Origin: Caulobacter sp. CCH9-E1
GTDB taxonomy: Bacteria > Pseudomonadota > Alphaproteobacteria > Caulobacterales > Caulobacteraceae
Length of the DNA: 45,384 nt
Direction of reading: 5' to 3'
NCBI RefSeq assembly: GCF_001556515.1
Contig: NZ_LSJA01000075.1
Span: 1 to 45,384, forward strand
The notes below the pieces were generated by a model that ran no database searches, was not told where the DNA came from, and saw nothing but the letters and a program-made list of their open reading frames with translations. A program made the position numbers and the translations under genes. Shown here piece by piece: positions 2,873-33,584 of the stretch (positions are counted from its first letter, which is position 1; every line of letters starts with the position of its first letter).

Positions 2873-2917
2873 GACCCTAAGCCCCCAAACCCCGACATTG
2901 TTGAAGGAGATGGTCTC

Positions 2918-3573: not shown

Positions 3574-3575
3574 GC

Positions 3576-15460: not shown

Positions 15461-15991
15461 ATGGGAAAAGCCGCTGATGATCTTGAGCCCCGTATCTATG
15501 TCGCGTGCCTGGCCGCCTACAATGGCGGCCGATTGCACGGCGCCTGGATCGATGTCGAGGACGACATCGAAGCGGTGTGGGTGGCGATCCGGGCGATGCT
15601 GGCGGCCTCGCCCGAGCCGATGGCCGAGGAGTTTGCGATCCATGACTATGAGGGCTTCGGCGGCGTAGAGATCGCCGAATATGCCAACATCGCCAGGGTC
15701 GTCGAAATCGCCGCCTTCCTGCGCGCGCGGGGTACGCTCGGCGCCCTGGTGCTGGCCGAGGTCGGAGGCGATCTCGATGCGGCCGCCGCAGCGCTCGACG
15801 ACCAGTATCACGGGGTCTTCGCCAGTCTGGCCGATTGCTTTCAAGAGATGACCGAGGAGACCACGGCCATTCCGGAGACCCTGCGGCTCTACATCGACTA
15901 TGAGGCCATGGCGCGCGACGCGCGGCTAAACGGCGAGTTGTTCACGGTCGAGACCGCCGCCGACCAAGTGCATGTTTTCTGGACGCGCTAG
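15461..15991 (+). CDS. ardA: Antirestriction protein ArdA
   Basis: ArdA is a DNA mimic that blocks type I restriction enzymes, protecting newly arrived conjugative DNA. ATG 15461 is preferred over ATG 15452 because AAGGA (15448-15452) is correctly spaced only for the former, giving 176 residues. Family features are the opening RIYVACLAAYNGGRLHGAWI, a high load of Asp and Glu, the EEFAIHDYEGFGG segment near residue 60, and the C-terminal YIDYEAMARDARLNGELF. Placement right after unknown cargo and before the repair block fits an early-expressed protection gene. Confidence 0.93.
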   Translation: MGKAADDLEPRIYVACLAAYNGGRLHGAWIDVEDDIEAVWVAIRAMLAASPEPMAEEFAIHDYEGFGGVEIAEYANIARVVEIAAFLRARGTLGALVLAEVGGDLDAAAAALDDQYHGVFASLADCFQEMTEETTAIPETLRLYIDYEAMARDARLNGELFTVETAADQVHVFWTR

Positions 15992-16113: not shown

Positions 16114-16145
16114 GAGGCCATGGTACGGCGCCGCTCATGGCGGCG

Positions 16146-16472
16146 CTAGCTCGCGTTGAGGCCCGCCCACCAATCGGCATAGACGGTATTCTTGGCCATG
16201 TGCCGGTTGAGGTCTGGCGCTCCATCGTTCCACCACACCGGGCCGCGCTCGCCCAGCCCGACCTTGGCGGCGTCGACTTGAGCGCGAGCCTTGGCCAATT
16301 GATCTGGGTCCTCGGCCGCCAGCGCCGCCCTGACCGCGCGACGCGCATTCATCAGCGCGTTCACCAAGGTCTGGCGGTGCTCGGCCGAGAGGTGTGGATT
16401 GCTTCGTCGCCAGAGCCGCCCGCGCACGACGATGTAGCGGCCATCCGGCGTAATGGGCGCGGGGGGCTTCAT
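16146..16472 (-). CDS. Conserved small protein paired with exonuclease III
   Basis: This protein of 108 residues begins at ATG 16472, overlapping the xth stop (ATGA). Codons upstream in the same frame are a shadow of xth. The sequence opens ITPDGRYIVVRGRLWRRSNP, has a helical middle (LVNALMNARRAVRAALAAED) and closes with LGERGPVWWNDGAPDLNRHM. I recall this as a conserved alphaproteobacterial hypothetical protein of unknown role. The coupling to an abasic-site endonuclease gene hints at a DNA-linked role, but this is inference. Confidence 0.75.
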   Translation of the reverse strand: MKPPAPITPDGRYIVVRGRLWRRSNPHLSAEHRQTLVNALMNARRAVRAALAAEDPDQLAKARAQVDAAKVGLGERGPVWWNDGAPDLNRHMAKNTVYADWWAGLNAS

Positions 16473-17242
16473 CGGAGGAGCTCGATCCAGGCGGGCGCGT
16501 GGTCGCTCGCGCCGTCGAGCCCGCGCACCCATCGATCGACACCGGCGTCTTCGAGTTCGTCGGCGAGATCGGGCGACAGAAGCAGATGGTCGATGCGCAG
16601 GCCTTTGTCCTTGGGCCAGCGCTCCCGCAGATAGGACCAGTAGGTCCAGGGCGCGGCGTTCGGATGCACGGCGCGCAGGGCGTCGGTCCAGCCCTGATCG
16701 AGCAGGCGCTGGAAGGCAGCGCGGCTCTCGGGACGGAGCAGGGCGTCGCCGCCATAGGAGTGATTGGGATAGATGTCAGCTTCGGTCGGCACGACGTTGT
16801 AGTCGCCGGCCAGCACCACCGGCGCCCCGGAGTTCAGAAGGCTTTGGGCGTGGGATAGCAGGGCCTCGAACCAGGCGAGTTTGTAATCGAATTTAGGGCC
16901 GGGAACCGGATTGCCGTTCGGCAGGTAGAGGCAGCCGATCAGCACGCCTTCTACCGCCGCCTCGATGTAGCGGCTCTGGGATGGATCAGGATCGCCGGGC
17001 AGGGCGGTGCGCGTCAGGACCGGGGTCATCCCGCGCGCCAGGATCGCCACGCCGTTCCAGGTGCGCTGGCCCTTCCAGACCGCGCCGTAGCCCATCTGCT
17101 CAATGGCCTCGGCTGGAAACCGGCCCTGTTCGGCCTTGAGCTCCTGGAGACAGACGACGTCGGGCTGGGCGTCGTCCAGCCATTCGATCAGCGGGTCGAA
17201 CCGGCTGAGGACGTTGTTGATGTTCAAGGTGGCGATGCGCAC
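16469..17242 (-). CDS. xthA: Exodeoxyribonuclease III (abasic-site endonuclease)
   Basis: Exonuclease III cuts DNA at abasic sites and trims 3' ends in base-excision repair. Start GTG 17242 (RIATLNINNVLSRFDPLI) gives 257 residues, normal for the family. A TTG at 17278 in the same frame is less likely. Motifs in order: CLQELK with the metal-binding Glu near residue 37, GDYNVVPTEADIY with the Asp/Asn pair near 153, TYWSY, and RIDHLLLSPDL near 230 followed by the SDHAP catalytic His near 250. It lies in the cargo DNA-repair block and is coupled to the 108-residue gene. Confidence 0.93.
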   Translation of the reverse strand: MRIATLNINNVLSRFDPLIEWLDDAQPDVVCLQELKAEQGRFPAEAIEQMGYGAVWKGQRTWNGVAILARGMTPVLTRTALPGDPDPSQSRYIEAAVEGVLIGCLYLPNGNPVPGPKFDYKLAWFEALLSHAQSLLNSGAPVVLAGDYNVVPTEADIYPNHSYGGDALLRPESRAAFQRLLDQGWTDALRAVHPNAAPWTYWSYLRERWPKDKGLRIDHLLLSPDLADELEDAGVDRWVRGLDGASDHAPAWIELLR

Positions 17243-17342
17243 GCCAGGACAACCGTCACCGCCGGGACGTCGTTCCAAAGGCTAGGTGCGGAACAGTTTG
17301 GCTGGCCTGCGGATTCGTCTTTCGAAAGGGAGACTTACCGCC

Positions 17343-17525
17343 ATGTCCAAACGTGAACTGATCGAGCCCACGCCCGGTGACAAGCGCTATGTGCGTCGCG
17401 ACGACAAGGGCCACTTCTCCGAGGTGGTCGATGTCGGCAAATCGTCGGCCGCCGACCAGCGCCGCCACTCCAGCCATGACGCGGGACGCGGCCAGGGCGA
17501 CAAGGGCGATCGCCAGAAGGCCTAG
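17343..17525 (+). CDS. Small conserved hydrophilic protein next to ku
   Basis: This 60-residue protein starts at ATG 17343, with AGGGAG at 17326-17331. It reads SKRELIEPTPGDKRYVRRD, then GHFSEVVDVGKSSAADQRRH and a Gly/Lys/Asp-rich tail. It is highly charged and probably disordered at the end. Similar small proteins are recalled in other alphaproteobacteria without a known role. Its stop overlaps the ku stop (convergent genes, 4 bases). Confidence 0.75.
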   Translation: MSKRELIEPTPGDKRYVRRDDKGHFSEVVDVGKSSAADQRRHSSHDAGRGQGDKGDRQKA

Positions 17526-18406
17526 CCAGCCTTGCGGCGGGCCGGCGCCTTGGCGGGCGCCGGCGCCGTCGTCGCCTTCGATCGACCGCTGGCCTTGGCC
17601 GCCGCCTTGGGCGGCTTGGCCTTGGCGCCGGGCGCGCCGCCAAGGCTGGCCCGCAGCGCCGCCATCAGGTCCACGACATTGGTGTCGTCCGGCTCGGCGA
17701 CCTTGGCCACCTTGTGGCCCTTGCGCTTGTCGGCGATCAGCGCCTTGAGCGCCTCCTCGTAGCGATCGGTAAACTGACTGGGGTCGAACGGGCCTTCCTG
17801 CTGCTGGATGATCTTTTCGGCGATTGAGATCATCGCCGCGTCCGGCGCCTTGTCGCTGATTGCCCCGAAAATTTCATCCTCGGCCCGGACCTCCGCATCG
17901 GTGCGCAGGGTATAGGCCAGGATGCCCTTGCCGCGCGGCTCCAGGGCTAGCAAGCGCTCGCGGGTCGACATGACCACCCGGCCCAAGGCGATCTGGCCTG
18001 AGCGCGCCATGGCCTCGCGGATGACGCTGAAGGCTTCCTGGGCCAGCTTGCCGTCGGGCGCGAGGTAATAGGGATTGTCCCAGTAGATGCGATCGATGTC
18101 GGCCTCGGGCACGAACCGCTCGATGTCGATGGTCTTGGTGCTCTCCAGTTTGACCGAGGCGATCTCATCATTGGTCAGCAGCACGTACTGGCCCTTCTCG
18201 AACTCGTAGCCCTTCACCAGTTTAGCGCGCTCGATCGGCCCGGTGTCGGGGTCGGTGGTGACCATCTTGATCCGGTTGTTGGTCTCCGGATTGATCAGGT
18301 TGAAATGGACCTCGCCGCCGGAGTTGGTCGCGGTGTAGAGCGCCACCGGACAGGTGACGAGCGAGAGGCGAAGGTGTCCCTGCCAAGTAGGGCGATAGCC
18401 GGCCAT
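17522..18406 (-). CDS. ku: Ku protein for non-homologous end joining
   Basis: Bacterial Ku forms a homodimeric ring on broken DNA ends and recruits LigD. The ATG at 18406 gives 294 residues. The Ku core is complete: RPTWQGHLRLSLVTCPVALY at the N-terminus, KGYEFEKGQYVLLTNDEI near 65-82, IYWDNPYYLAPDG near 108, and the AMARSGQIALGRVVM helix near 131-146. The last ~45 residues are a Lys/Ala/Pro-rich basic tail, typical of Ku proteins that bind DNA strongly. No ligD is found in the window, so a partner must be elsewhere. Confidence 0.95.
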   Translation of the reverse strand: MAGYRPTWQGHLRLSLVTCPVALYTATNSGGEVHFNLINPETNNRIKMVTTDPDTGPIERAKLVKGYEFEKGQYVLLTNDEIASVKLESTKTIDIERFVPEADIDRIYWDNPYYLAPDGKLAQEAFSVIREAMARSGQIALGRVVMSTRERLLALEPRGKGILAYTLRTDAEVRAEDEIFGAISDKAPDAAMISIAEKIIQQQEGPFDPSQFTDRYEEALKALIADKRKGHKVAKVAEPDDTNVVDLMAALRASLGGAPGAKAKPPKAAAKASGRSKATTAPAPAKAPARRKAG

Positions 18407-18493
18407 GGTCCTGTTTCCGTGAGGGCCGGCAGGATCGCCGGTCCGTGAAGACTCGACTCAACGGGGCTGGCGGTGATTCGTTCTGGCCGGCCT

Positions 18494-18724
18494 CTACTGG
18501 CAGGGCGCGGCCTCGCCGCTGTCCAGATCGATCCGGAAGCAGTGCTCCACGCCGCTCTCGGTCTCCCGCACGATCAGAGAGACCTCGTTGTCGGCGTCGA
18601 CTGGCGGATGCCAGAGCTCGACAAAGGCCACCGCCGCGTCCTCGAAGCTGACGGCGTCGACCGCGTGCCCGTGGCTGGCGTCTTCGCCGCGCGCATGGAC
18701 GCGATAGGTCTGGGTGTCGGGCAT
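18494..18724 (-). CDS. DUF5961-family small protein
   Basis: This 76-residue protein (ATG 18724) has a small alpha/beta layout: TYRVHARGEDASHGHAVDAV, a helix FEDAAVAFVELW, a strand EVSLIVRETESG and the end EHCFRIDLDSGEA. This matches my memory of the DUF5961 family. No enzyme motif is present. It is on the same strand as ku, 87 bases upstream of it, and may be transcribed with it. Confidence 0.65.
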   Translation of the reverse strand: MPDTQTYRVHARGEDASHGHAVDAVSFEDAAVAFVELWHPPVDADNEVSLIVRETESGVEHCFRIDLDSGEAAPCQ

Positions 18725-18936
18725 GGGAAATCTCCTGGCGCCAAGACAACGCTTCGCATGGCGAAAGGATTCTGCCGCATTGGCCGGTGTGAAACTTGGC
18801 CGGCCCGTCTGGCGCTAGAATACCGTCCGCCGCTTGAGTTTGGCGGGCGGGAAAGCCGGTCCGTCGTGTTCGCCCTCTAGCGCCCGCGGGCCGGCCAACC
18901 TCTCGAAAATTCACGGGGCGTTCCCATATCTGGGGC

Positions 18937-19314
18937 ATGCACACGCGATCCACGGCGAAGGCCGCGCTCCTGCCGTTCGCCGAGGACCTGACGGTCGAAA
19001 CGAGCGCGGAGATCCTCGATCTGGAGGGCGTCGCCGAGCGCCGCGAGCGCTTCCTGGCCCATGCCGCAGCCGCCAGCAAAGTCGTCACCTACGAGTTCGC
19101 CATTCCCGCCGAAGCCAAGGTCTCGGGTATTGGTCCGGATGGGGAGGTTCGCGACGCGCGCCCCCAGCTTGAACTGATAATCGCTCTGACCGGCGGCGCG
19201 CTGGCTAAGTTCCCGGGCGGCTTGACCGCACGCGTTCCAGTCGCGGCCGCCGCGCGCTTCGAAGACCTGGCCAAGGCCTTGATCGAGACGTTCCTCGTCA
19301 GCTGGCGCGTCTAG
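18937..19314 (+). CDS. Conserved unknown protein (125 residues)
   Basis: The frame opens at ATG 18937 and ends in a 4-base overlap with the convergent alkB-like gene. The product is soluble, with a helical half (EILDLEGVAERRERFLAHAA) and a strand-rich half (KVVTYEFAIPAEAKVSGIGP). No family is recognised. The ~210 bases upstream hold no other gene and should contain divergent promoters for this gene and the DUF5961 gene. Confidence 0.65.
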   Translation: MHTRSTAKAALLPFAEDLTVETSAEILDLEGVAERRERFLAHAAAASKVVTYEFAIPAEAKVSGIGPDGEVRDARPQLELIIALTGGALAKFPGGLTARVPVAAAARFEDLAKALIETFLVSWRV

Positions 19315-19895
19315 CGCCGCACGGTCCGAAACGTCACCGAATAGCGCAGGGCCTCGAGCGCGGGGATGCTGTGCTGCCAGTCGCTACGCGCCGGACCGGC
19401 CATCAGATAGGCCGAGCGTGGCGAGGCGATGATCGACGCGCGATCCCAGCGGTCGCCGGCCTTGCGCCTCAGGCGGAAATGACAGGGCGACAAGAGTGAA
19501 ACCCCCGCGATCGCCACGGCCGGCGGCCGGTCGCGATGCCAGCCGATCCCCGCGCCCGGCGAATACTCGGTGACCAGGGCATGGCGGAAGCTGTCGCGCG
19601 CTAGGCCCGTGAAGGCCGCCACCTTGTCCAGCAACGGCAGGAGCAGGTCGGGGATGGGCTCGCCGGTTTCCACCATCCGGCCGCTCTCGTCCTGCCGCCA
19701 GCCAAAGCCGGCGATGCGGCGATTTCCGAAATAGCCCAGATGCTCATAGGCCTTGAACGGCAGGTCCTGGAAGCTAGCGACGAGCTCGCGTTCCTCGGCC
19801 GCGTCAATCAGCTCGGCCTTATAGCGAAAGCCTTCCGGCAAGGGCGTCTTGGGCGCGAGAGGAAGGTCGAAGAGCAAGGGTTGGGTGTCGATCAT
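19311..19895 (-). CDS. alkB: AlkB-like 2-oxoglutarate/Fe(II) dioxygenase
   Basis: AlkB-type enzymes reverse alkyl damage on DNA bases by oxidation. ATG 19895 follows GAGG at good spacing, giving 194 residues. Iron ligands appear as the HxD motif in GIGWHRDRP near residue 125 and the distal His in WQHSIP near 174. The 2-oxoglutarate-binding arginines lie in RYSVTFRTVRR at the C-terminus. The nucleotide-recognition lid region (EHLGYFGNRRIAGFGW) is also typical. It starts 9 bases after dnaE2 and may belong to the imuA-imuB-dnaE2 transcript. Confidence 0.9.
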   Translation of the reverse strand: MIDTQPLLFDLPLAPKTPLPEGFRYKAELIDAAEERELVASFQDLPFKAYEHLGYFGNRRIAGFGWRQDESGRMVETGEPIPDLLLPLLDKVAAFTGLARDSFRHALVTEYSPGAGIGWHRDRPPAVAIAGVSLLSPCHFRLRRKAGDRWDRASIIASPRSAYLMAGPARSDWQHSIPALEALRYSVTFRTVRR

Positions 19896-19903
19896 CGCGC
19901 GCC

Positions 19904-22900
19904 TCAACAGAAATTGCGGCTGCGGCGGGCCCAGGAAAGATCGCCGGCGTCGGCGCCGCGATCCTGCAGGTGCGACAGGACCGCGCCGAGGTCATGGAGC
20001 TTGTAGGCGACCAGGTGGACGACATCGCCTTCGCGCTGGATGTAGCCCTCGACGCCGAGCAGATGGGCCGAAAGGGCCACTCGGCGCTGCTTTTCGTAGA
20101 GCGTCTTCCAGATCACGAGGTTGGAAACGCCACTCTCATCCTCGAGGGTCATGAACATCACGCCCTTGGCGGTGCCCGGCATCTGGCGCACCAGCACCAG
20201 GCCTGCCGTCTTGATGAACTGGCGATCGCGACCGCTGGCGGCGGCCTGGCAGGGGCGGTAGCCCTGGGCGGCAAGTTCTTCGCGTAGCAGCGCCAAGGGA
20301 TGGCGGCGTAAGCTCAGGCCCACGTGGCCATAGTCCTCGACGATCTCGCGCCCCTCGGTCATGGCCTTCAGCGCCGGGGCTGGCTCATTCAGCTCCGGCG
20401 CCTTGGCCTGATCAAACAGGGGCAGGGCGACATCACGCAGGCCTTTGATCTTCCAACCCGCTTCGCGTCGGGCAAGGCCAAGGCTTGGCCGAAAAGCGTC
20501 GGCTTCGGCCAGGCGCGAGAGGGCGCCAGGGCCGATCTGCGCGCGACGCCAGACCTCGTCGATCGATCCATAGGGCTCTTCCGCGCGGGCCATAACGAGG
20601 CGTGCGGCGTCGAGTTCGGACAGCTTGCGCACCATCCGCAGACCCAGACGCACGGCCAGCGACCCGTCCGAGGTCTCCTCCAGGATGCAGTCCCAGCGCG
20701 AGGCATTGATGCAGATCGGTCGCACTTCGACGCCGTGCTCGATAGCGTCCCTGACGATCTGGGCCGGTTGGTAAAAGCCCATCGGCTGGCTGTTGAGAAG
20801 GGCCGCGCAGAAGACATCGGGGTGGTGGCATTTGAGCCAGGACGAGGCGTAGGCCAGGAGCGCAAAACTAGCGGCATGGCTTTCGGGAAAGCCGTAGGAC
20901 CCGAAGCCCTCCAGCTGGGTGAAGGTCTGTTCGGCAAATTCCAGCGGATAGCCGCGCTCGACCATGCCGCCGACCAGCTTGTCCTTGAAGTGGCTGACCC
21001 CGCCGGTGAACTTGAAGGTGGCCATCGCCCGGCGCAGCTGGTCGGCCTCGCCGGGCGTGAAGCCGGCGCACTCGATGGCCACCCGCATAGCCTGCTCCTG
21101 GAAGAGCGGCACGCCCAAGGTCTTGCCCAGCACCTTTTCCAGCTCGGGCTTGGGGAAGGTCACAGGCTCCTTGCCTTCGCGGCGGCGCAGATAGGGATGG
21201 ACCATGTCGCCCTGGATCGGGCCGGGACGCACGATCGCCACCTCGATGACCAGGTCGTAGAACGAGCGGGGCTTGAGGCGTGGCAGCATGGCCATCTGCG
21301 CGCGGCTCTCGATCTGGAAAACGCCCAGGGTGTCGGCCCTGCGGATCATCGCGTAGGTGCGCGGATCCTCGGGCGGAATGGTCGCAAGATCGAGCGCGAT
21401 CCCCTTGGCGTCCTTGAGTAGGTCCAGGCCGCGCTTGAGGCAGGTCATCATCCCCAGGCCCAGCACATCGACCTTCATGAACTTCAGCTCGTCGATGTCG
21501 TCCTTGTCCCACTCGATGATCTGGCGATCCTTCATTCGCGCCGGCTCGATCGGGACGAGCTCGTCCAGGCGGTCATGGGTCAGGACGAAGCCGCCAGGGT
21601 GCTGGCCAAAATGGCGCGGGGTGTTGAGCAGCACCTGGGCCAGCTCCAGGGTCAGGCGGAGGCGCCGGTCGGAAAGATCGAGGCCCATGTCGCGGGCGTG
21701 CTTTTCTTCGATGTCCTCGCGGGAAAAGCTCCAGATCTGGCTGGAGAGCCCCTTGGTCATGTCCTCGGGCAGGCCCAGGACCTTGCCGACGTCACGCACC
21801 GCGCCGCGCGGCCGAAAGCGCTGGACGACCGCGACGATCGCCGAGCGATGGCGGCCATAGGTTTCGAAGATCCATTGCATCACCGTCTCGCGTCGGGCGT
21901 GCTCGAAATCGACATCGATGTCCGGCGGCTCGTCGCGCTCGGCGCTGACGAAGCGCTCGAACAGCAGGTCGTTGCGCTCGGGGTCGATGCTGGTGATGCC
22001 CAGCACGTAGCAGACCGCCGAATTGGCGGCCGAGCCGCGGCCCTGGCAGAGGATGTCCTGGCTCTTGGAATAGCGGACGATCGAATTGACGGTCAGGAAG
22101 TAGGGCGCATAGCCCAGCTGCCCGATAAGCTGCAGCTCATGCTGAAGGATCCGGCGGACCTCCGGCGTCAGGCCGTCGGGAAAACGGTGGGCCGCGCCTT
22201 CCCACGTCAGGCGCTCCAGAGTCTGCTGGGCGGTCTCACCGTCGGCGACCACTTCACGCGGATACTGGTAGCTGAGCTCGGACAGCGAGAACCGGCAGCG
22301 CTGCGCGATCGCTACCGACGCGGCGACGGCGGCGCGGTGGCGTGGGAAGAGGCGCAGGATTTCGGCCGGGGTTTTCAGGTAGCGGTCGGCGTGCCGGTCG
22401 CGCTTGAAGCCGACGTCGTCGATCGTGGTCCCTTCGCGGATGCAGGTGACGACGTCCTGCAGCAGTCGCCGTTCCTTCTCATGGAACAGCACCCGGTTGG
22501 TGACCACCGGGGTGACGCCGGCCGCCAGGGCCATCTGTTCAAGCTCATAGAGCCGCAGCGCGTCGCCAGGACGCCGGCGCAAGGTCAGGGCGACATGGGC
22601 GTCCGGGCCGAAAATGTACGCGAGCTTGTGGAGCTGCTGGGCGGTGGTCTCGTCGGCGTCCTCGGGCACGAGGATCGCGATCAGCCCCTCGGCGTGGGCG
22701 GCGAGATCGGTGAGATCAAGGTCGCAGCCGCCCTTGCCTGCGCGGGTCTTCCCCAAGGACAGCATCCGCGAAAGGCGGCTGTAGGCGGGGCGGTCTGTGG
22801 GCAAGACCACGATCGTCATGCGGTCGCGCAGGACCAACTCGCAGCCGACGATCAGCCGAACCCCGGTTTCCTTGGCGGCGATGTGGGCGCGCACCAGGCC

Positions 22901-23068
22901 AGCCAGGCTGTTGCGATCGCAAATGGCCAGCGCCCGGTAGCCTAGCCGAGCGGCCTCGTCGAACAGCTCGCCCGGGGACGACGCCCCGCGTAGCAGCGAA
23001 AAGTGCGAGGCGCATTGGAGCTCGACATATTCGCCAAGATCTTCAGGTGCTTGTCCGGGTGAGTTCAT
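19904..23068 (-). CDS. dnaE2: Error-prone DNA polymerase DnaE2 (ImuC)
   Basis: DnaE2 is the C-family translesion polymerase of the SOS mutasome. ATG 23068 overlaps the imuB stop (ATGA), and upstream codons are a shadow of imuB. The 1054 residues are typical. The PHP domain starts [20 protein letters not shown]. The catalytic palm acids lie in [13 protein letters not shown] near residue 380. The [18 protein letters not shown] segment, a helix-hairpin-helix region and an OB fold follow. The C-terminus [13 protein letters not shown] is the short DnaE2 type. It works with ImuA and ImuB encoded just upstream. Confidence 0.96.
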
Positions 23069-24588
23069 CCGAACACCCCGGCCATGAACCAGCGCTGGCT
23101 GCCGGTGGCGGCGTCCTCGCCGTCGCCGTCGCGATAGATCCAGTAGCGCTCGCCGCCGTCGTCCTCGACCTGGAAGTAGTCTCTGGAGCGGGCCAGCTCG
23201 GCGTCCGCCTTCCACCACTCGCCGAACACCCGCTCGGGGCCGTCGGCGCGGCGGACCCGCCGACGCACGCCGCGCCAGGTGAACGACGCCGGCGGTTGGT
23301 CGGGGAGTAGGGCCACCGTCTCGATCGGCTCGGGACGGGGAAAGAACCGGGTCGGCCGAGGCCAGTCGACGGGCCAGGAGAAGGCGGCCGGCGTCTCGCC
23401 GGCGGGCGCCTTGCGCACGCTTCGTTCAGGCAAGTCGCTCTCGGTGCTGGCCAGGCGGTAGACCGCCTCCGCGCCGAGGCGCACCCGCAGCGTGTCGATC
23501 AAGCCCGACAGATCGGCGGTGCGTTTGCCGCCCAGCACATCGTCTTGGCTGTAGGCCAGCGGCTCAGCGTTAGACGCGGCCAGGACCATCTTGTCGACGC
23601 CGAAGCCCGGATCGACCTTCTCCAGCTTTTCGCAAAGCAACTTGGCCAGCCGACGAGCGTCGCGTGCCGGGGCGGAGAGGCCGATGCGGGCGCTCTCGAC
23701 GCGGTTGTCGACCCGGTAGAACCAGGCATCGATCGTCTTGGCCCCGAGCGTTAGAGCTTCAAGCGTGGCGCAGAGTTCGACGGTCAGCTCGGTCAAGTAG
23801 CGGGCCATGGTCTCGGGCGCACCGATCGGTTCGGCGAAGATCTTGGCCGCGCGTGGGGTCTCGGGCGCGAAGACCGGCTCGATCGGCTCGCGCTCACGGG
23901 CATGGGCCTGGTCGAGCCGGCGGATCGGCTCCATCCCGAAGCGATGGGCCAACGGACCCTTGGCCGTGGCCTCCAACTCGCCAATGGTGTCGAAGCCCGG
24001 CTTAGCCAGGGCCTGGACGGTCTCCGGCTGCAGGCGCAGCGCTGCGACCGGCAGGTCCTTGAGCTGCACGCCCAGGCCGCCGGGCGGCACGACGAACACC
24101 GAGCGCCGGGAATAACGGGCCAGCGCGTGGGCGCCGCCCCAGCTGTCGGCGATCGCGACCGTGGCGGCGTAGCCGGCCTTGGCGAGGCGCCGGCGCAGGT
24201 CGATCAGCATCTTCTCTTCCCCACCGAAGAGATGCGCGCAGCCTGTGGCGTCGATGACTAGGCCGTCGGGCGGATCAGCCGCCACTGTCGGCGAGTAGAG
24301 CCGCTGGGCCCAGAGCGCCAAGCGCTGGAGGGCGGCGTTGTCGCCCTCGACGTCGAGATCATGGAGCACGAGGCCGGGGACCAGGGCCGTGGCGTGGGCG
24401 ACGGCCTGGCCAAACCGAAGGCCGGTCTTGGCGGCGGCAAGGTTCATGTGCGCGACCGCGCGCCGGCGACCGACCCGTCCGACCATAACGATCGGCGTGT
24501 CAGGCGATGGCGCGCTCTTGCCCTGCAAACGGGCCAGCCGGTCGGTGGGCCAGCGGGGCAGGAAGACGGAGATGACCCTTTGCGTCAC
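23065..24588 (-). CDS. imuB: ImuB, inactive Y-family polymerase-like mutasome hub
   Basis: ImuB links DnaE2, ImuA and the beta clamp in the mutasome. The start is GTG 24588 ([17 protein letters not shown]), giving 507 residues. Where active Y-family polymerases have a DMDAFYA metal site, ImuB has FLPRWPTDR, and at the second site it has [13 protein letters not shown] in place of SLDE, so it is catalytically dead, as known for the family. Little-finger and C-terminal regions continue to residue 507. It overlaps imuA by 89 bases and dnaE2 by 4, forming a tight operon. Confidence 0.95.
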
Positions 24589-25267
24589 AGGCTTCTAGCT
24601 CGATGTCGAAGGCGTCGCCGGCCTTGCAGCGGAGGAGTTCGAGAAACCAGCGGGGACGACCCACGCCAGGAACGGAAGGCGGAAGTGGCGAGGAGGGCAG
24701 GGGCGAGACCCGCCACCGCGTCTCGGCCGCTGTCGGCTGGCCGAGGTCGGCCGCGTCGGCGATCCGTCGCCACCTTCGGACCGCGATGGCGATCTGGCCG
24801 CTCTTCTCGGCCGCCAGCTGCAGGCGCCGCGAGGCGGTCATCGAGAGCTTGCCGACCTCGCCGATCACCCCGGCCAAGCCCGGCCAGCGCAGACCTTCCT
24901 CCATGGCGGCCAGCACGCCGGCCTCGTCGCCGGCGTCGGCGAAGATCACCCGCTGTGGCGGCAGGCCGGCCTGGGCCAGGGAGGGGGCGAAGAGGTCCGC
25001 TTGCCGCCGGCACCAGAGAACCTCGCCCTGCGCTCGGGCCAGGATGCCGGCGGCGAACTTGGCCGCCGTCGCGCCGTAGAGCGCTTCCTCGGCGCCGCCA
25101 ACCACTTCGTGCAGCGCCCCGAGCGCCAGGCCGCCGCCGGGCAGGCGCGCGTCCAAGGGTTGGACGCCGAACGGCAACACCGCGCGGGTGACGCGATCCT
25201 GGGCTTCCAGGGCGCGAACCTTGCGACGGAGCGCGTCGAGCGCGGCGGGGGATGAGGATGAGATCAT
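24500..25267 (-). CDS. imuA: ImuA, RecA-like mutasome protein
   Basis: ImuA is a RecA/SulA-like accessory protein of SOS mutagenesis that works with ImuB and DnaE2. ATG 25267 gives 255 residues. The start is supported by the SOS box 17 bases upstream. The protein opens with LDALRRKVRALE, then LPGGGLALGALHEVVGGAEEA, the position of a weak Walker-A-like loop, then GEVLWCRRQADLFAPSLAQAGL and an ASRRLQLAAEKSG segment. It is the first gene of imuA-imuB-dnaE2, possibly with alkB as a fourth gene. Confidence 0.93.
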   Translation of the reverse strand: MISSSSPAALDALRRKVRALEAQDRVTRAVLPFGVQPLDARLPGGGLALGALHEVVGGAEEALYGATAAKFAAGILARAQGEVLWCRRQADLFAPSLAQAGLPPQRVIFADAGDEAGVLAAMEEGLRWPGLAGVIGEVGKLSMTASRRLQLAAEKSGQIAIAVRRWRRIADAADLGQPTAAETRWRVSPLPSSPLPPSVPGVGRPRWFLELLRCKAGDAFDIELEACDAKGHLRLPAPLAHRPAGPFAGQERAIA

Positions 25268-25284
25268 GGCAAGAGAACGAATTC

Positions 25285-25299
25285 GTTCTAGCTTTGTTC
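25285..25299 (-). promoter_or_regulatory. LexA (SOS) box of imuA
   Basis: The bases GTTC-TAGCTTT-GTTC form the alphaproteobacterial LexA site, a direct repeat with a 7-base spacer. It sits 17 bases upstream of the imuA ATG at 25267 (gene on the minus strand). SOS control of imuA-imuB-dnaE2 by such a box is established in Caulobacter. Here it implies that the host LexA controls ICE-borne mutagenesis. Confidence 0.9.
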
Positions 25300-25499
25300 T
25301 TGTTGCCGTTTCGGAGTCAACGGGGCCATCGGTGCGGCGCAGGCGCGCGCCCGGCCCAAGGTCCAATCGCCACAAGGGTTTGAGCGGAATCGAAATTTTT
25401 CGGGGACGACCGAAGCTGACGTAAGCGTGGCCAGAAGCGGCGCCGCCTGCGGTCGCCAAGCCTGGCCATGCGCGTTAGGGTCGTGGTCGGAGGTGGCTG

Positions 25500-25712
25500 A
25501 TGGATGATGATGACGAGCCCCGACAGCGCCCAAGGTTTTACGAGTGGGAGGGCTGGGCAGTCTGTCTGGTCGGGGCGGTGATGCCGACGGTTGTGCTCAC
25601 CAGCTTGGTTCAGATGATCGAGGGCAAGACCGAGCCGTGGTTCTTGCCTGGCCTCTTCATCGGCCTCTTCACGCTGGCCGTCCTGGCGATCCGCCCCTGG
25701 ACGATGCGCTAG
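25500..25712 (+). CDS. Small two-helix membrane protein
   Basis: This 70-residue protein starts at ATG 25500, with a strong GGAGGT site at 25489-25494. The acidic start MDDDDEPRQRPRFYEWEGW is followed by two hydrophobic segments (about 19-40 and 47-65). No family is recognised. It diverges from imuA and overlaps the end of the convergent protease-like gene by 4 bases. The 230-base gap before it carries the imuA SOS box. Confidence 0.7.
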   Translation: MDDDDEPRQRPRFYEWEGWAVCLVGAVMPTVVLTSLVQMIEGKTEPWFLPGLFIGLFTLAVLAIRPWTMR

Positions 25713-26569
25713 ACGGAGGCTGGAGCGTCTTTGGATGGGGCTGCGAGCGCGGCGGCCGCCTCGCGTCGTACTTGGTCCTGGTGGGCCGCATCCAGGACGT
25801 CCCTGACCGCGGTGACATGCCAAACCCTGCCGAGGTCGGATTCCGGGTTGAGGCGGCCTGAATAGATGCCCAGGAATTCCCAGACAGACGCGCCGCTCAT
25901 GACCGATGACAAAGCGCCGTCCGCTCGGCGCGTGCGGTAGGTTCCGGTGCGATAGGAGATCACCGCCGAACCCGATTGGCCTCTCCGCGCGCGACAGTCG
26001 ACAAGGAACACCGGGTTGTCCGGCGTAATCAGCTCCAGCTCCTGAGCCAGAAAACCGGTCGCCCAAATTGGAAACCGGCCGAACGACGACTGTCCGAAGG
26101 GAAAACCGATGACGCTGACGGTGTCTGCGGGGCCGACGTAAATCCCCGCCCGATCCAGATCTAGGTCCATGTAGTACGCGTATTTGCTGACGTCGCCGCC
26201 CCAACTAAGGTTCAGCGCCACCAGATCGGCCGCTGCGCCGAGACGAGGGTGCTCGATCCAATACGGCGTGCCGTCGTCCCGAAACAACGGCAGGCGGATT
26301 TCAACCCATTCCCCGACATGGCCGGCCTTATGGAAATGGATGACGATGGCGTCCGGCTCGGCGCCCTGGCTGTGCAGGCACTGTCCAGAATCCTGGTCGC
26401 GCCCGGTGACGTTGTGCCGGTTGGTGATGAAAGCGCAGTGCGACTGCCGGTCGTTTGCCGCCAGGAAGCCGGTGCCGGACGCCAGCTTCAGCTCGCCCCG
26501 GAACATTTCGATGTAGAGCGACTTCATCGTCGGGATTGCGATTTGCGATCCGACTTGGTCCTCAGTCAT
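25709..26569 (-). CDS. Trypsin-like serine protease-domain protein
   Basis: This 286-residue protein (ATG 26569; a TTG at 26575 is an alternative better spaced from AGGAG) has the chymotrypsin-fold pattern: SGTGFL then FITNRHNV with the catalytic His near residue 52, ADLVALNLS with the Asp near 115, and RRGQSGSAVISYR with the catalytic Ser near 200. There is no signal peptide, so it is probably cytoplasmic. Cytoplasmic trypsin-like proteases are frequent in bacterial conflict systems. The gene follows a 125-residue unknown gene by 27 bases on the same strand, and the two may form a pair. Confidence 0.8.
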   Translation of the reverse strand: MTEDQVGSQIAIPTMKSLYIEMFRGELKLASGTGFLAANDRQSHCAFITNRHNVTGRDQDSGQCLHSQGAEPDAIVIHFHKAGHVGEWVEIRLPLFRDDGTPYWIEHPRLGAAADLVALNLSWGGDVSKYAYYMDLDLDRAGIYVGPADTVSVIGFPFGQSSFGRFPIWATGFLAQELELITPDNPVFLVDCRARRGQSGSAVISYRTGTYRTRRADGALSSVMSGASVWEFLGIYSGRLNPESDLGRVWHVTAVRDVLDAAHQDQVRREAAAALAAPSKDAPASV

Positions 26570-26596
26570 GTCCAAGCGGTCTCTCCTGAGTGCTGG

Positions 26597-26974
26597 CTAG
26601 GACGGCTCGCCCTGGCTCAAGGCCTCGATCTGGCGCGCCGGGTCCGCCTCGATGGCGCGCCATAGCGCACCGGCAAGAAGGTCCTGGTAGGCGGCCAGGG
26701 CGGTGACGGCTGCGCTCCGCTCCAAGGCCATGATCAATACGGCGTGCGCGGCGATCAAGGGCAGGTCACGCGTTGCGGTGACATCCTGATGCACCGCAAT
26801 CGCGGCGAGCGCCGCGCGGCGCGTCCAACCGTCCAGCGGCCCGGTCAGTTCAGCGACCAGCACGGGGCCCTCGACTTCGCGTCGCACGCAGAAACCAAGC
26901 GCCAGGACGCCGCGGCGAGATACGGCCCGCCAGTAGTCGATCGGTTCCAATTCGGGGTTCGGCGGCTGCGTCAT
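26597..26974 (-). CDS. Unknown protein upstream of the protease-like gene
   Basis: This 125-residue protein (ATG 26974) is mostly helical, with a long Ala/Leu-rich part (LIAAHAVLIMALERSAAVTA) that looks amphipathic more than membrane-spanning. No motif is recognised. It is followed closely by the trypsin-like gene, suggesting a shared transcript. There is no good ribosome-binding site before the ATG. Confidence 0.6.
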   Translation of the reverse strand: MTQPPNPELEPIDYWRAVSRRGVLALGFCVRREVEGPVLVAELTGPLDGWTRRAALAAIAVHQDVTATRDLPLIAAHAVLIMALERSAAVTALAAYQDLLAGALWRAIEADPARQIEALSQGEPS

Positions 26975-27019
26975 TGGGAGGTTTATAGCGCCACGATGAC
27001 GAACGCCTACGGTCCGAGG

Positions 27020-28090
27020 CTAGACGGGTAGGGTGGCCTGGGCCTCGATCGGGGCCGGAGCGAAGCTCGACACGGTCACGCCCAACAATCGCACGCCCGC
27101 GCGCAAAGGGTACACTGATCGCACCAGATCCTGGGCCACGCCTTTCAGGGTCGTCGCGTCAGCGATGACGTTGGGCAAAGAGCGCCGCCGCGTGGCCTGC
27201 TCGAAGTCGGCATACTTGATCTTCACCGTCGCTGTGCGCCCAAACGCCTGGGTCTTTTCGCACCAGCCGAACACCTTGTCGGCCAAGGCGGCGATCTCGG
27301 TCTCAATGAGATCGGGATCGGTGAGGTCGGTCTCGAAGGTCGTCTCCGAGCCTGAGGACTTGCGCTCGCGATCGGGATTGACCGGGCGCTCGTCGACACC
27401 GCGGGCGATCCCGTAGAACCATGCTCCGCTGTTGCGGAAGTGGTGAACAAGGAAGTCCAGGGTCTGATTGTAGAGGTCCTCGCCGGTCTCGATGTCCAGC
27501 GCCTTCATCTTGCGCTCGGTGACTTCGCCTACGCCGTAGAAACGGCCGATCGGCAAGGTAGCCACGAAGGCTTGGCCCCGGCCAGGCGCGACCAGGAACT
27601 GGCCGTTGGGCTTGTTCTGGTCGCTAGCCATCTTGGCCAAGAACTTGTTGTAGGAGATGCCCGCCGAGGCGGTGAGGCCCGTCTCGGCCAGGATGCGCGC
27701 CCGGATCTGCCGCGCGGTCTCGGTGGCGCTGCCGACGCCGGCCTTGTCGGCGGTGACGTCGAGATAGGCCTCGTCCAGCGACAGCGGTTCGATCAGGTCG
27801 GTGAAGTCAGCGAAGATCTCGTGGATCTGGCGCGAAACAGATTTGTAGACCTCGAACCGAGGCGGCACGAAGACGAGCTGCGGGCATTTGCGTAGGGCCG
27901 TGGTTGACGGCATGGCCGATCGCACACCGAACCGTCGGGCCTCATAGCTGGCGGCCGCGACCACCCCGCGCCGTGCCCCGTGGCCAACGGCGAGGGGCTT
28001 GCCCTTAAGGCTGGGATCATCGCGCTGTTCGACCGACGCATAGAAGGCGTCCATGTCGATATGGATGATTTTGCGAGGCGGCGAGTCCAT
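27020..28090 (-). CDS. dinB: DNA polymerase IV (Y family)
   Basis: Pol IV copies past damaged bases. ATG 28090 gives 356 residues. The first metal site is IHIDMDAFYASVEQRDD near residues 9-25 and the second SLDEAYLDVT near 103-112. GISYNKFLAKMASD and the GVGEVTERKMKALDI helix-hairpin-helix follow. The little finger ends VRLLGVTVSSF. All catalytic acids are present, so it should be active, unlike ImuB. A perfect SOS box lies 24 bases upstream. There is no obvious clamp-binding motif at the very C-terminus (IEAQATLPV may serve). Confidence 0.96.
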   Translation of the reverse strand: MDSPPRKIIHIDMDAFYASVEQRDDPSLKGKPLAVGHGARRGVVAAASYEARRFGVRSAMPSTTALRKCPQLVFVPPRFEVYKSVSRQIHEIFADFTDLIEPLSLDEAYLDVTADKAGVGSATETARQIRARILAETGLTASAGISYNKFLAKMASDQNKPNGQFLVAPGRGQAFVATLPIGRFYGVGEVTERKMKALDIETGEDLYNQTLDFLVHHFRNSGAWFYGIARGVDERPVNPDRERKSSGSETTFETDLTDPDLIETEIAALADKVFGWCEKTQAFGRTATVKIKYADFEQATRRRSLPNVIADATTLKGVAQDLVRSVYPLRAGVRLLGVTVSSFAPAPIEAQATLPV

Positions 28091-28114
28091 GTCCCCAGCA
28101 AGCTAACACCCTGT

Positions 28115-28129
28115 GAACGAAACGCGAAC
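28115..28129 (-). promoter_or_regulatory. LexA (SOS) box of dinB
   Basis: On the minus strand the sequence is GTTC-GCGTTTC-GTTC, a perfect direct repeat with a 7-base spacer, 24 bases upstream of the dinB ATG. It may also affect the divergent gene at 28246, whose start is 116 bases away. Confidence 0.88.
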
Positions 28130-28245
28130 TTTCTCCTTGAGCGGGCGGCTGAGATCGGGTGAAACCACGGGTCTTGCGACGCCGCGTCGCAGCGCGAAGG
28201 GCCGCTCGGGTGGTCCATCGTGGGGCCAGTCGGGGAGTGCCAGAC

Positions 28246-28593
28246 GTGTCGCGTATCGAGGGTGAATTTCTGAGCCTGGCCCTGGAGATCGGCCTAGCCG
28301 AAGCGATTGCCGAGACCCTGCGCGACATCGATCGGGCGATGGCCGAACTACCGCCAACAGACCACGGCTCGCGCTATCGTAAGCGCCTGGAAGATCAGCG
28401 GGCCAGTTTGCGCAACCCGACCCTGCGCACGACGGCCGCTCTAGTCGTAGCGATGTGCGTTAAGAACCCGGCGCTAACGCCGAGAATCCGCAAGCCTTTC
28501 GCGCACTTGGTCGACCGGCATCCAGAGCTGATCTGGCTCTTTCCGCAGTTGCCTGCCGATCCCAAGCCGACGGAGTTGCGTCGCGCGGGCTAA
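28246..28593 (+). CDS. Unknown helical protein divergent from dinB
   Basis: The start is GTG 28246, with GGGGAG at 28232-28237. The longer upstream frame is arginine-rich and has no proper site. The 115-residue product is helical (SRIEGEFLSLALEIGLAEAI, then LRTTAALVVAMCVKNPALTP) and soluble. No family is recognised. It shares its upstream region, with the SOS box, with dinB. Confidence 0.6.
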   Translation: MSRIEGEFLSLALEIGLAEAIAETLRDIDRAMAELPPTDHGSRYRKRLEDQRASLRNPTLRTTAALVVAMCVKNPALTPRIRKPFAHLVDRHPELIWLFPQLPADPKPTELRRAG

Positions 28594-28595
28594 GC

Positions 28596-28775
28596 CTACT
28601 GCACGCGTGGCGGCGGATCGTAGGGGCGGTCGTCGTCTGGAGACAAAGGTGGTCCTGGCTCGTTGAACGGGACGATCGGCTCGTCGAGCTCAGGCGGCGG
28701 GCCGTCCGGCGGGATCTCCAGCGGTGGAGCACCAGGTTCCGGATGGGGCGGTGGGGGTGCGAACGGATCGGACAT
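28596..28775 (-). CDS. Tiny proline-rich acidic protein
   Basis: A 59-codon minus-strand gene opens at ATG 28775 and ends at TAG 28596. Nearly half of its residues are proline (SDPFAPPPPHPEPGAPPLEI near the start, YDPPPRVQ at the end) with many Asp and Glu. I recall very similar small proline-rich peptides in other alphaproteobacteria, usually unannotated. It must be disordered and could be a flexible binding peptide. Its role is unknown. Confidence 0.6.
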   Translation of the reverse strand: MSDPFAPPPPHPEPGAPPLEIPPDGPPPELDEPIVPFNEPGPPLSPDDDRPYDPPPRVQ

Positions 28776-28871
28776 GGATTACCTCATGATCCGAACGCCA
28801 GGGGCGCGCGATCGCTCCTTACGGGATCGAACGACGCCGATGATGTCGATCACGAGGAACAGACCGCCGAC

Positions 28872-29204
28872 ATGTCAGAGCGCCCGCCTTCGACGCTGAA
28901 GCGACCGCCGGAACAGCTCATTCGGCGCTTCCATCTCGGTCAGGTGGGAAGCGATACGGTGCGCACCTACCTCACCAAGGGCTATTCTCTCGCGATCTGC
29001 TGCAAGGACTGCCCTCGGTGCCTGGAATGGACTCCCGAGGATCTTGTCGAGAAATTTGGCGAGCGGACGCACATTAAGATCGCGGATATCGCCGCGCGGC
29101 TATCCTGCAGCGGCGAAGAAGGATGCAGGTCCAAGGAGGTGGCTGTCTTCCCGCATCTCTACGACGGCCCTTGGTCTTGGACCCCGCCGGACGACGAGGG
29201 CTAG
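28872..29204 (+). CDS. Cysteine-rich, probably zinc-binding protein
   Basis: ATG 28872 gives 110 residues ([19 protein letters not shown]). Upstream codons in the frame overlap the proline-rich gene and look like shadow. Cysteines cluster as [12 protein letters not shown] near residue 43 and [12 protein letters not shown] near 80, a likely zinc site. It ends in a 4-base overlap with the convergent SRAP gene. No family name is recognised. Its place beside SRAP suggests a DNA-linked role, as inference only. Confidence 0.65.
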
Positions 29205-29956
29205 GCGGGGACAACCTCGTCGCTCTTGCCGCCAAAGGCGACGATCTTCAGACGGTCCGGAAGCGGACGCTGGAGCGACTTGACCTCGTCCCAGGGCGCG
29301 TCGCTCATCCAGAGGTCCCACTCCTCCGGTTCGGTGAGGATCACCGGCATGGCCTTGGAGTGATAGGTCTTCACCGGCTCGGCGGAATCCGTCGTGAGGA
29401 AGCCGTAGGCCACAATCTCTTCCCAGCCCTTGCTGATCATCCGCACGCAGGCGTGGGGCGTCCAGATGCCGGCGAAGAAGGCCAGGGGGCGGCCTTCGTC
29501 CAGCGCGAACCAGACGTTCTTGCGGTCTTTCTTGTGGTCCTGATCGGGCTCGGCGAAGGAGGTGAACGGCACGAGGCAGCGACTGCCGGCGCCTAGCCAC
29601 GGCGCCCAGTGCCGGTTGGTTTTGCCCGTCTTCTTGCTGATCGCGTAGCGGATGTTGGTGGTCCCCTTGTCGGGCTCCATCTTCAGCAACTCGGCGAAGT
29701 CGAACTCCGTGCCCTTGGCGCGCAATTTGTCGGCCCGCAGCGTGGCCGCGTCGAACAGCGCTTCCTTTGATGACGGCATGCCCCACCTCGCGTCGCGCAT
29801 GATCCGCTGACCGTCTTCGCCTTGGGTGATGATCGGCGCGGCGTAGTCAGGATAGATGCCCGGCATAGGCGGCTGGTTGTTATTGAGGTCGGTCATCGCC
29901 CGCGCCAGCGCCGCCACTTCAGCGCGCGCCTTCATCAGGGCGTAGAGATTGCACAT
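29201..29956 (-). CDS. yedK: SOS response-associated peptidase (SRAP; YedK/HMCES-like)
   Basis: SRAP proteins bind abasic sites in single-stranded DNA and form a covalent link through Cys2. ATG 29956 makes MCNLYALM, placing the Cys correctly after removal of Met. Other family residues are TTNIRYAIS with the active-site Asn near 100, the Glu in FTSFAEP near 137 (most relatives have GFYEW here, so this is a divergent branch), and [14 protein letters not shown] with the catalytic His near 198. Length 251 is normal. No SOS box is seen upstream of this gene despite the family name. Confidence 0.92.
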
Positions 29957-30033
29957 TCAAGAGGTCTCCAGGCGGCCGTTCAGCCGACGCTAGCGGTCAG
30001 CCATCAAACTGCAAGCCGACGTACCGAACGTCT

Positions 30034-30387
30034 CTAGGCTGCCTTCAACCACACGCGCGCGTGCCACCATCCGCGCGGGGCGTGCTCTGGATCGCCCAGA
30101 CCATCGAAGAACATCTCCACGTGCTGGGCGCGCGGATGGTCGACAAGCGCTTGGCAGGGTGCGCCCTGGCCATGCAGCTCGACCTCGTGCGGGCGATCAG
30201 GACGGGCCTCATCGAGCGCCGGCGCGGCGTCGATCGTGCGGTCAAGCCAGATGACCAAGCCGCCATCGCGGCCGGCTTCCACATGCCGGACAGCGGGGAG
30301 GGTTTCCAGGTATCCGGGTGCGCCGACTAAGCCGTCGATTTCCACGGCAGTCAGCGGTTCAGCGGTGACGGGATGAGCGTGGTTCAT
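30034..30387 (-). CDS. Unknown protein with its own SOS box
   Basis: This 117-residue protein begins at ATG 30387. The upstream open frame is rejected because a perfect LexA box lies directly before the ATG. The product has HAHPVTAEPLTAVEIDGLVG, a strand GGLVIWLDRTID and EVELHGQGAPCQAL, ending WWHARVWLKAA. It looks like a small compact alpha/beta protein. No family is recognised. No ribosome-binding site is visible, and the box abuts the start, so the transcript may be leaderless. The SOS box makes it a candidate damage-response gene. Confidence 0.7.
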   Translation of the reverse strand: MNHAHPVTAEPLTAVEIDGLVGAPGYLETLPAVRHVEAGRDGGLVIWLDRTIDAAPALDEARPDRPHEVELHGQGAPCQALVDHPRAQHVEMFFDGLGDPEHAPRGWWHARVWLKAA

Positions 30388-30389
30388 GG

Positions 30390-30404
30390 GAACGAATATA
30401 GAAC
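30390..30404 (-). promoter_or_regulatory. LexA (SOS) box of the 117-residue gene
   Basis: On the minus strand the sequence is GTTC-TATATTC-GTTC, a perfect direct repeat with a 7-base spacer. It ends two bases before the ATG at 30387. It is the third such box in the cargo, and the only one before a gene with no known function. Confidence 0.85.
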
Positions 30405-30446
30405 ATCCTGATGTGAAAGGCGAGTCGACGTGAGGTCGCAGAGGGT

Positions 30447-30471
30447 GGCCCGAAGCACGAGGCTTCGGGCC
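30447..30471. terminator. Hairpin in the gap before the DksA-like gene end
   Basis: GGCCCGAAG and CTTCGGGCC make a perfect 9-bp stem around a 7-base loop. It lies in the 193-base gap (30388-30580) downstream of the minus-strand DksA-like gene. There is no T run, so terminator function is uncertain. Nothing else is recognised in the gap. Confidence 0.4.
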
Positions 30472-30580: not shown

Positions 30581-30844
30581 TCAGCGCAGCTGGCTGTCTT
30601 TGCTGCCGCGGCGATTGATGCTGCTGAACACCACTTGCTTGTCGCGCCCAGCCTGGCACTCGATGCAGGTCCGGCAGCCGGGTAGGGCGCGTCGGCGAGC
30701 TTCGGGAATGTCCTCGCCGCACTCGACACAGAAAAAGAAGCTTTCTCCAGCGGGTAGCCGAGCACGCGCGTTGAGGACGCCGTCGGTTACCGTATCTTCG
30801 ATCTGATCGAGAACGCCCCCGTCATGGGTCCAGCCGCCTGCCAT
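30581..30844 (-). CDS. DksA/TraR-family zinc-finger protein
   Basis: This 87-residue protein (ATG 30844) has the short TraR/YbiI-like layout: an N-terminal helix (DQIEDTVTDGVLNARARL) followed by a four-cysteine zinc finger, CVECGEDIPEARRRALPG then CRTCIEC, with the family signature I-P-x-A-R. TraR-like proteins bind RNA polymerase in the secondary channel and mimic DksA plus ppGpp, and many are carried by conjugative elements. The tail (QVVFSSINRRGSKDSQ) is unremarkable. AAGGAG lies 11 bases upstream of the start. Confidence 0.85.
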   Translation of the reverse strand: MAGGWTHDGGVLDQIEDTVTDGVLNARARLPAGESFFFCVECGEDIPEARRRALPGCRTCIECQAGRDKQVVFSSINRRGSKDSQLR

Positions 30845-31000: not shown

Positions 31001-31375
31001 ATGACCGGCAGCGATCCTCATCTCAACGCCTGGGCCATTGGCCAACTTCAGGAAACGCAGGCCCAAGTCGACCATGTGGTCTTCGATCTTGGCGTCGATA
31101 CCGATGTCGGCATCCCGGGCGCCGGCGGGGTATCGATCGCCAGCGAGGATAACAGGCAGGGCTTGCGAACGCTGTTTCTGACCGCACGCCCGGTCCTTCT
31201 GGGTCAGGTCGAGTTGCTCGCCGAGCTGATTACCCAGGCGCCCGACAAGAAACCGCATAGGAAGATCGCCAACCTATCGGCAACGCCCGATGCTCTACGA
31301 GACCTGGCGCGCGTGCTCCTCGAGGCGGCCGATGCAGCCGACGAACTGCGACCGCGTCCGACCCCTGTCGGTTAG
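31001..31375 (+). CDS. Unknown protein next to the integrase
   Basis: ATG 31001 gives 124 residues. It is soluble with mixed structure (QVDHVVFDLGVDTDVGIPGA, then LLGQVELLAELITQ) and a helical end (LRDLARVLLEAADAADEL). No family is recognised. It is convergent with the integrase gene, overlapping by 4 bases. Genes in this position can be directionality factors, but this one has no clear DNA-binding helix. Confidence 0.55.
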   Translation: MTGSDPHLNAWAIGQLQETQAQVDHVVFDLGVDTDVGIPGAGGVSIASEDNRQGLRTLFLTARPVLLGQVELLAELITQAPDKKPHRKIANLSATPDALRDLARVLLEAADAADELRPRPTPVG

Positions 31376-33581: not shown

Positions 33582-33584
33582 GGC

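Follow-up and report, generated by a model that had tools for sequence, protein, structure and literature searches.

A dusA-inserted conjugative-type element of Caulobacter carries a repair gene island with predicted LexA-controlled promoters

Contig NZ_LSJA01000075.1 of Caulobacter sp. CCH9-E1 (GCF_001556515.1), analyzed as one stretch of 45,384 nucleotides (nt) that we call the window, carries a DNA repair island inside a conjugative-type element ending at the chromosomal gene dusA. A first-pass annotation had listed exonuclease III, Ku, an AlkB-type protein, ImuAB-DnaE2, DNA polymerase IV (Pol IV) and SRAP within about 14 kb, and all these families were borne out by Pfam or NCBIfam matches and encoded by intact frames. 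The bounds given for the block (16146..30404) had to be redrawn, since it starts at 16469, and 30404 falls on the edge of a LexA box, with no gene ending there; the open reading frames tried at 16135-16755 had no Pfam family match. On the minus strand we found an exonuclease III-type apurinic/apyrimidinic endonuclease (16469..17278; Pfam Exo_endo_phos, 93.6 bits), Ku (17522..18406; Pfam Ku, 149.9 bits), dinB encoding Pol IV (27020..28090; NCBIfam Pol IV, 462 bits, and Pfam IMS, 185 bits) and SRAP (29201..29956; Pfam SRAP, 68.6 bits; N-terminus MCN). The same strand carries a run of imuA (24500..25267), imuB (23065..24588; Pfam IMS, IMS_C and DUF6504; start codon uncertain), dnaE2, or imuC (19904..23074; Pfam DNA_pol3_alpha, 280.8 bits; frame open up to 23218), and, as its last gene, an alkB-type 2-oxoglutarate-Fe(II) oxygenase (19311..19895; Pfam 2OG-FeII_Oxy_2, 58.5 bits). 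The imuA product scored 55.7 bits against NCBIfam ImuA_translesion (cut-off, 150) and is encoded at the expected place between a LexA box and imuB, with the start set just below the box. The genes imuA, imuB and dnaE2 are co-directional, overlap and stand behind that box, the arrangement of an imuA-imuB-dnaE2 cassette.

For comparison, we assembled 16 mobile-type DnaE2 loci, 10 of them obtained with island DNA as the query, a search mode that favors such loci, and 6 by DnaE2 identity in genomes already chosen; G261:C5, a near copy of G226, was excluded. The control consisted of nine chromosomal DnaE2 loci from this genus, two of them cut by contig ends. In all 8 mobile loci with alkB, this gene followed dnaE2 on the same strand after a gap of 3 to 22 nt (between tblastn match ends), and it was absent from the other 8 of the 16. 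Its placement suggests that alkB forms one operon with imuA-imuB-dnaE2. The AlkB-type proteins of the elements scored 43 to 64 bits against PF13532, versus 182 to 197 bits for the canonical AlkB of the hosts, and the best solved relative of the protein encoded here was human ALKBH2, a weak match (E = 5e-4); the protein is so far from canonical AlkB that any substrate is a guess.

The SOS operator of Caulobacter is GTTCN7GTTC (as given in PMC9578287), and this motif was taken as the perfect LexA box. The window contains 4 perfect boxes, versus 1.12 expected, a number reached in 0 of 100 shuffles. Three lie in the island near start codons: GTTCTAGCTTTGTTC (25285..25299, plus strand) about 18 bp before imuA; GTTCGCGTTTCGTTC (28115..28129, minus strand) 25 bp before dinB and shared with the divergent gene g28159 (28246..28593, plus strand; start taken from the consensus of homologs); and GTTCTATATTCGTTC (30390..30404, minus strand) 2 bp before g30034 (30034..30387, minus strand), the gene between this box and SRAP. 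Matches with one mismatch were ignored (29 found, 30.3 expected). All three boxes, that of imuA included, recur at the same places in the diverged relative Caulobacter endophyticus (locus L014), whose island is 70 to 88% identical to the window in aligned pieces, and that locus has no other box in 23 kb. In each of the 15 genes counted, third codon positions held the most differences from L014 (for positions 1/2/3, 6/2/51 in Ku and 77/43/298 in DnaE2), an excess indicating that the island genes have been kept. LexA control of these element promoters is what the predicted boxes suggest.

A box preceded imuA in 16 of 16 mobile-type loci, and g30034 stood beside one in 4 of the 6 distinct loci with this gene. 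For dinB, the copies on elements and in host chromosomes differed: 13 of 14 full-length ICE-type copies (75 to 100% identity; ICE, integrative and conjugative element) had a box, versus 0 of 10 full-length host copies (39 to 42% identity) (Fisher P = 5.6e-6, for sequences that are related and non-independent). This count excluded fragments and a host copy that matched in two pieces; no box was found before these either. Host alkB, with genes placed by tblastn, had a box in 0 of 12 cases. The boxless host dinB and alkB agree with a C. crescentus survey (PMC1839093), which found no evidence for SOS control of dinB and described alkB expression as cell-cycle-dependent.

The position of the block upholds the view of the repair genes as cargo of a conjugative element. 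To its left, on the plus strand, are a VirB/Trb-type secretion operon (1919..10850) for VirB11, VirB2, VirB3, VirB4, VirB8 and TrbI (Pfam T2SSE, TrbC, VirB3, TraG P-loop/CagE-TrbE-VirB, VirB8 and TrbI), with TrbJ- and TrbL-like genes named by position only, and the gene for an ArdA antirestriction protein (15452..15991; Pfam ArdA, 133.9 bits). To its right, the mobile DNA continues through genes for a DksA/TraR-type zinc-finger protein (30581..30844, minus strand; Pfam zf-dskA_traR) and a tyrosine integrase of the dusA-associated type (31372..32490, minus strand; Pfam Phage_integrase, 82 bits) to the chromosomal target gene dusA (32565..33581, plus strand; NCBIfam DusA, 507 bits), within the 5' end of which lies the core of the right attachment site, attR (TTTCTGTTGCGCCCATGATGG, 32590..32610, plus strand). 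The integrase adjoins dusA also in G226, G261 and G264. Integration at a tRNA gene was considered and rejected in favor of dusA; ARAGORN detected no tRNA and Rfam no match (E up to 1) at 29000-35000. Farther out, the chromosomal flank holds a match to the Caulobacter small RNA family CC0196 (45213-45272) and a tRNA truncated by the end of the window (45344-45384).

The nearest genome, G001, aligned with window positions 54-34182 at 99.2% overall. Over 54-32611 the two were 100% identical except for one mismatch, at 32444, and past 32611, in dusA and farther along, identity per 500-base step fell to 81 to 85% (long aligned pieces of the right flank, 78 to 86%), so that near-identity stops inside the first dusA codons, at TTTCTGTTGCGCCCATGATGG. 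Near-identity beside a diverged flank points to a recent transfer involving two diverged hosts; we read it as recent movement of the element between species, and the near-identical copies next to diverged flanks are indirect support for self-transfer. G001 repeats the 21-bp core 116.3 kb away with 1 mismatch, the next-best match within the 160 kb examined having five; this left end (attL) was observed in G001 only; the window itself covers the integrase and attR. A stretch adjoining the far copy matches the beginning of the integrase gene at 73% identity; it may be left over from an earlier insertion, and the span of about 116 kb could therefore be composite. Among 10 proteins tested from the G001 element outside the window were a DUF3363 relaxase, VirD4, RND-type efflux proteins, a P-type ATPase and TonB receptors. 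The window and G001 thus supply between them an integrase with attachment repeats at both ends, a type IV secretion system (T4SS; in the window) and a coupling protein and relaxase (VirD4 and DUF3363, in G001), the constituents of an ICE, inserted at the 5' end of dusA with a 21-bp direct repeat like a dusA-associated island. The efflux, P-type ATPase and TonB receptor genes of the G001 element lie at L010-L011 and L094-L095.

Linkage of the repair genes to DnaE2 was scored within 16 kb. Among the 16 mobile-type loci, exonuclease III was a neighbor in 10, AlkB in 8, SRAP in 7, Ku in 6 and Pol IV in 6 (one partial), whereas the 9 chromosomal loci had 0 of these five partners; the clustering is therefore not due to chance. 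The 6 loci picked by DnaE2 identity had exonuclease III in 3, SRAP in 2, and Ku, AlkB and Pol IV in 1 each, 2 of the 6 having none of the five. Twelve of the 16 had VirB11, VirB8, TrbI or ArdA nearby (in one case slightly farther off than 16 kb, and in some with matches of only 31 to 55% identity), and neither a T4SS gene nor ArdA was seen in the stretches read for the other 4. In Alphaproteobacteria at large, the best 80 loci of a scan (flanks of up to 10 kb) had SRAP near DnaE2 in 23, Pol IV in 13, AlkB in 12, exonuclease III in 7 and Ku in 4; all five occurred in L014 only, and none in 43. DnaE2 relatives (E ≤ 1e-100) were present in 776 plasmid records, 407 of them typed as conjugative. 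Of three plasmid neighborhoods read, one from Methylocella combines DnaE2 with dinB, SRAP, a helicase, ImuA and an ImuB-like protein, and the incomplete gene tables of two from Caulobacter, one of which is cut near DnaE2 where the record ends, showed no such set. In position and identity, G001:C1 284397-287522 coincides with the DnaE2 of plasmid p1 from Caulobacter sp. FWC26 (NZ_CP033873.1).

Content and order of the island vary among related elements. The same backbone at dusA in G226 and G261 carries ImuAB-DnaE2 and SRAP, without Ku, exonuclease III, AlkB or Pol IV in the stretch read. In G203 the order is T4SS-ArdA-Pol IV-exonuclease III-AlkB-DnaE2-ImuB-ImuA-Ku; the islands of G203 and G234 adjoin a related T4SS, that of G201:C69 lies beside ArdA about 32 kb from one, and in G202 the full set is flanked by VirB11/VirD4 on one side and a MobA/MobL relaxase with ParAB on the other. 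G264 shares the right end from the integrase to g30034 at 100%, with no island in its draft assembly. In G264:C40 (L145) the match breaks near 30153, at the start of SRAP, and the sequence past the break, which recurs alongside g30034 in L134 and L138 and at another place in an island stretch of G203 (L158), is probably a repeated insert. The first-pass expectation of related ICEs with the same set and order thus held for the linkage, which recurs, and failed for order and content, which change; nor does the full set form one fixed, purpose-built kit, given the four families not seen in the stretches read in G226 and G261 and the 4 of 16 loci without a T4SS gene or ArdA. Elements that differ in content and order are better described as a shuffled family.

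Such shuffling would also be expected if repair genes merely collected, with no joint function, in a tolerated zone between T4SS and integrase, where Argonaute-system, PD-T7- and PDC-S45-like genes ride along as well. Passive accretion of this kind is improbable in our judgment, as it sits poorly with the absence of all five partners from the 9 control loci, the conserved position of alkB and of most LexA boxes, and the third-position bias. We consider it likely instead that this dusA-inserted conjugative-type Caulobacter element carries a modular extension of the SOS regulon of its host, a reading that draws on observed gene content, the right boundary, near-identity in a diverged host, the boxes conserved in L014 and the third-position bias; the element probably improves emergency repair in cells that acquire it.

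Several observations weigh against this reading. The hosts already possess most of the activities of the island: those examined own Ku, LigD, DnaE2, DinB and AlkB, with host versions 51 to 55% (DnaE2) and 63 to 69% (Ku) identical to those of the island, while most other mobile DnaE2 copies are 80 to 93% identical. Because the hosts have a repair set of their own, the island would add to repair and not create it. Chromosomal imuA is also boxed, in 7 of the 9 control loci (the 7 with ImuA in range), which makes an imuA box alone ordinary. No perfect box was found near Ku or exonuclease III, and the whole island as one SOS regulon was rejected; g30034 is boxless in 2 of 6 loci, and so is 1 of the 14 ICE-type dinB copies, only 5 of which were seen inside a DnaE2 island. 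Induction of alkB would depend on the proposed operon. In the DNA search across genomes of the bacterial family, 118 of 390 were left unscored and one candidate was scored per genome, so that prevalence is a floor, and many counts come from related genomes.

In the proposed mechanism, damage or incoming single-stranded DNA would activate RecA, host LexA would be cleaved and three element promoters would open. The first, for imuA-imuB-dnaE2-alkB, would provide translesion synthesis, along with alkylation reversal if the AlkB-type enzyme acts like AlkB; the second would serve dinB with the divergent g28159, and the third g30034 and SRAP. SRAP proteins cap abasic sites in single-stranded DNA. Ku and exonuclease III would be expressed separately, with Ku working with host LigD. 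The only LigD match in G001 lies beside the chromosomal Ku, outside the element, and no LigD accompanies Ku in the cluster on the element as a two-component Ku-LigD system would have it, so that the element Ku would have to borrow LigD from the host. Near other islands, Ku and a LigD match are separated by no more than a few kb (G201:C69, 10-13 kb; G203:C1, 4.644-4.647 Mb), and C. crescentus is reported to lack Ku (PMC1839093). The net effect would be that DinB and the AlkB-type enzyme, whose host versions have no LexA boxes, join the SOS response of the recipient.

The genes might instead chiefly protect and complete the single-stranded DNA of the element during and after conjugation, when the SOS response of the recipient is set off; in several elements the island adjoins T4SS genes or ArdA, SRAP acts on single-stranded DNA, and rumAB on SXT/R391 ICEs offers a precedent. 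According to a review statement, rumAB improves conjugation (Sato, 2022, a title that includes UV irradiation). The G001 relaxase, however, lies beyond the T4SS and not next to the island, and Ku and the AlkB-type enzyme have no obvious role in transfer, so that we regard such a main function as unlikely. Still less probable to us is selection mainly for mutation rate or evolvability through additional copies of ImuABC and Pol IV: in C. crescentus, damage-induced mutagenesis is driven by imuABC (as stated in PMC9578287), but AlkB, Ku, exonuclease III and SRAP are repair or protection functions.

Each half of the SOS extension has precedents, in ICE-borne SOS polymerases and in neighborhoods of SRAP, ImuABC, DinB and Ku. 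Like the element described here, SXT/R391 ICEs bear an SOS translesion polymerase (according to a review). Their rumAB is of the Pol V type, and they are a different ICE family, with insertion at prfC, SetR and rumAB as hallmarks. Membership in that family was rejected: insertion is at dusA and the translesion genes are ImuABC and DinB (SetR was not searched for). Known chromosomal and plasmid imuA-imuB-dnaE2 cassettes share the gene order, the LexA control and the presence on alphaproteobacterial plasmids; the difference here is that alkB comes next downstream in 8 of the 16 mobile loci. The dusA-associated islands described by Farrugia et al. (2015; PMC4482086) have the tyrosine integrase at 5' dusA, 21-bp imperfect direct repeats and mosaic cargo including metal resistance and conjugation; they are typically 30 to 60 kb, versus about 116 kb in G001, and the main text never uses the word "repair." SRAP genes beside translesion polymerases, also with Ku and ligase, were described by Aravind et al. 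(2013; PMC3765255), in a main text that has 0 mentions each of AlkB and plasmids; here, SRAP is carried by an ICE-like element that has several LexA boxes. Judged by title and abstract opening, and with subscription journals mostly outside coverage, no literature on the combined repair set was found. The unusual part is that the DinB and AlkB-type genes of the element stand behind LexA boxes and the hosts' own copies do not.

The remaining genes of the island include several with no assigned function: a small conserved gene upstream of Ku (18503..18724, minus strand; 97% amino acid identity in G201:C46 and G202), a conserved gene at 18937..19314 (plus strand; third-position bias versus L014), and the likewise conserved g26597 (26597..26974, minus strand; found in 7 of 16 loci at a distance of up to 16 kb) and g28872 (28872..29204, plus strand; 82% amino acid identity in G202, third-position bias). 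The all-helical g28159 protein (47 related proteins) and the g30034 protein (42) had no relative carrying a function name, and their AlphaFold2 models (pLDDT, 81 and 88, respectively) gave no Foldseek fold match at E ≤ 0.001. A trypsin-like peptidase gene, candidate defense protein PDC-S45 (25709..26575, minus strand; Pfam Trypsin_2, PADLOC PDC-S45), lies between imuA and dinB, and PADLOC also matched PD-T7-1/PD-T7-5 at 13224-14258. The element further carries a short prokaryotic Argonaute pair (window 51-1052; G001 L009:16233-17642), with scores of 440 bits for the restriction endonuclease-type partner and 621 bits for pAgo_I; the window copy of the Argonaute-system gene covers 333 of 474 amino acids and is cut by unlike sequence at 1-53. 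The fourth perfect LexA box (1089-1103) lies about 37 bp upstream of this gene, whose homologs (E ≤ 1e-20) were found in 1 of 385 genomes of the class, G001 itself; about 1 chance box per window is expected.

A bolder proposal, which we put forward tentatively and think more doubtful than the SOS extension of this one element, is that the ICEs and plasmids of Caulobacter carry a portable, evolving second SOS regulon that would rewire host repair, put DinB and the AlkB-type enzyme under LexA and add g28159 and g30034 as SOS families, in part to save the single-stranded element on its arrival. Bacteria differ in what their SOS regulon contains, and mobile elements appear to place under LexA functions whose host versions stand outside LexA control. 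If this is true, damage tolerance and the induced mutation rate would hinge on which conjugative element a strain carries.

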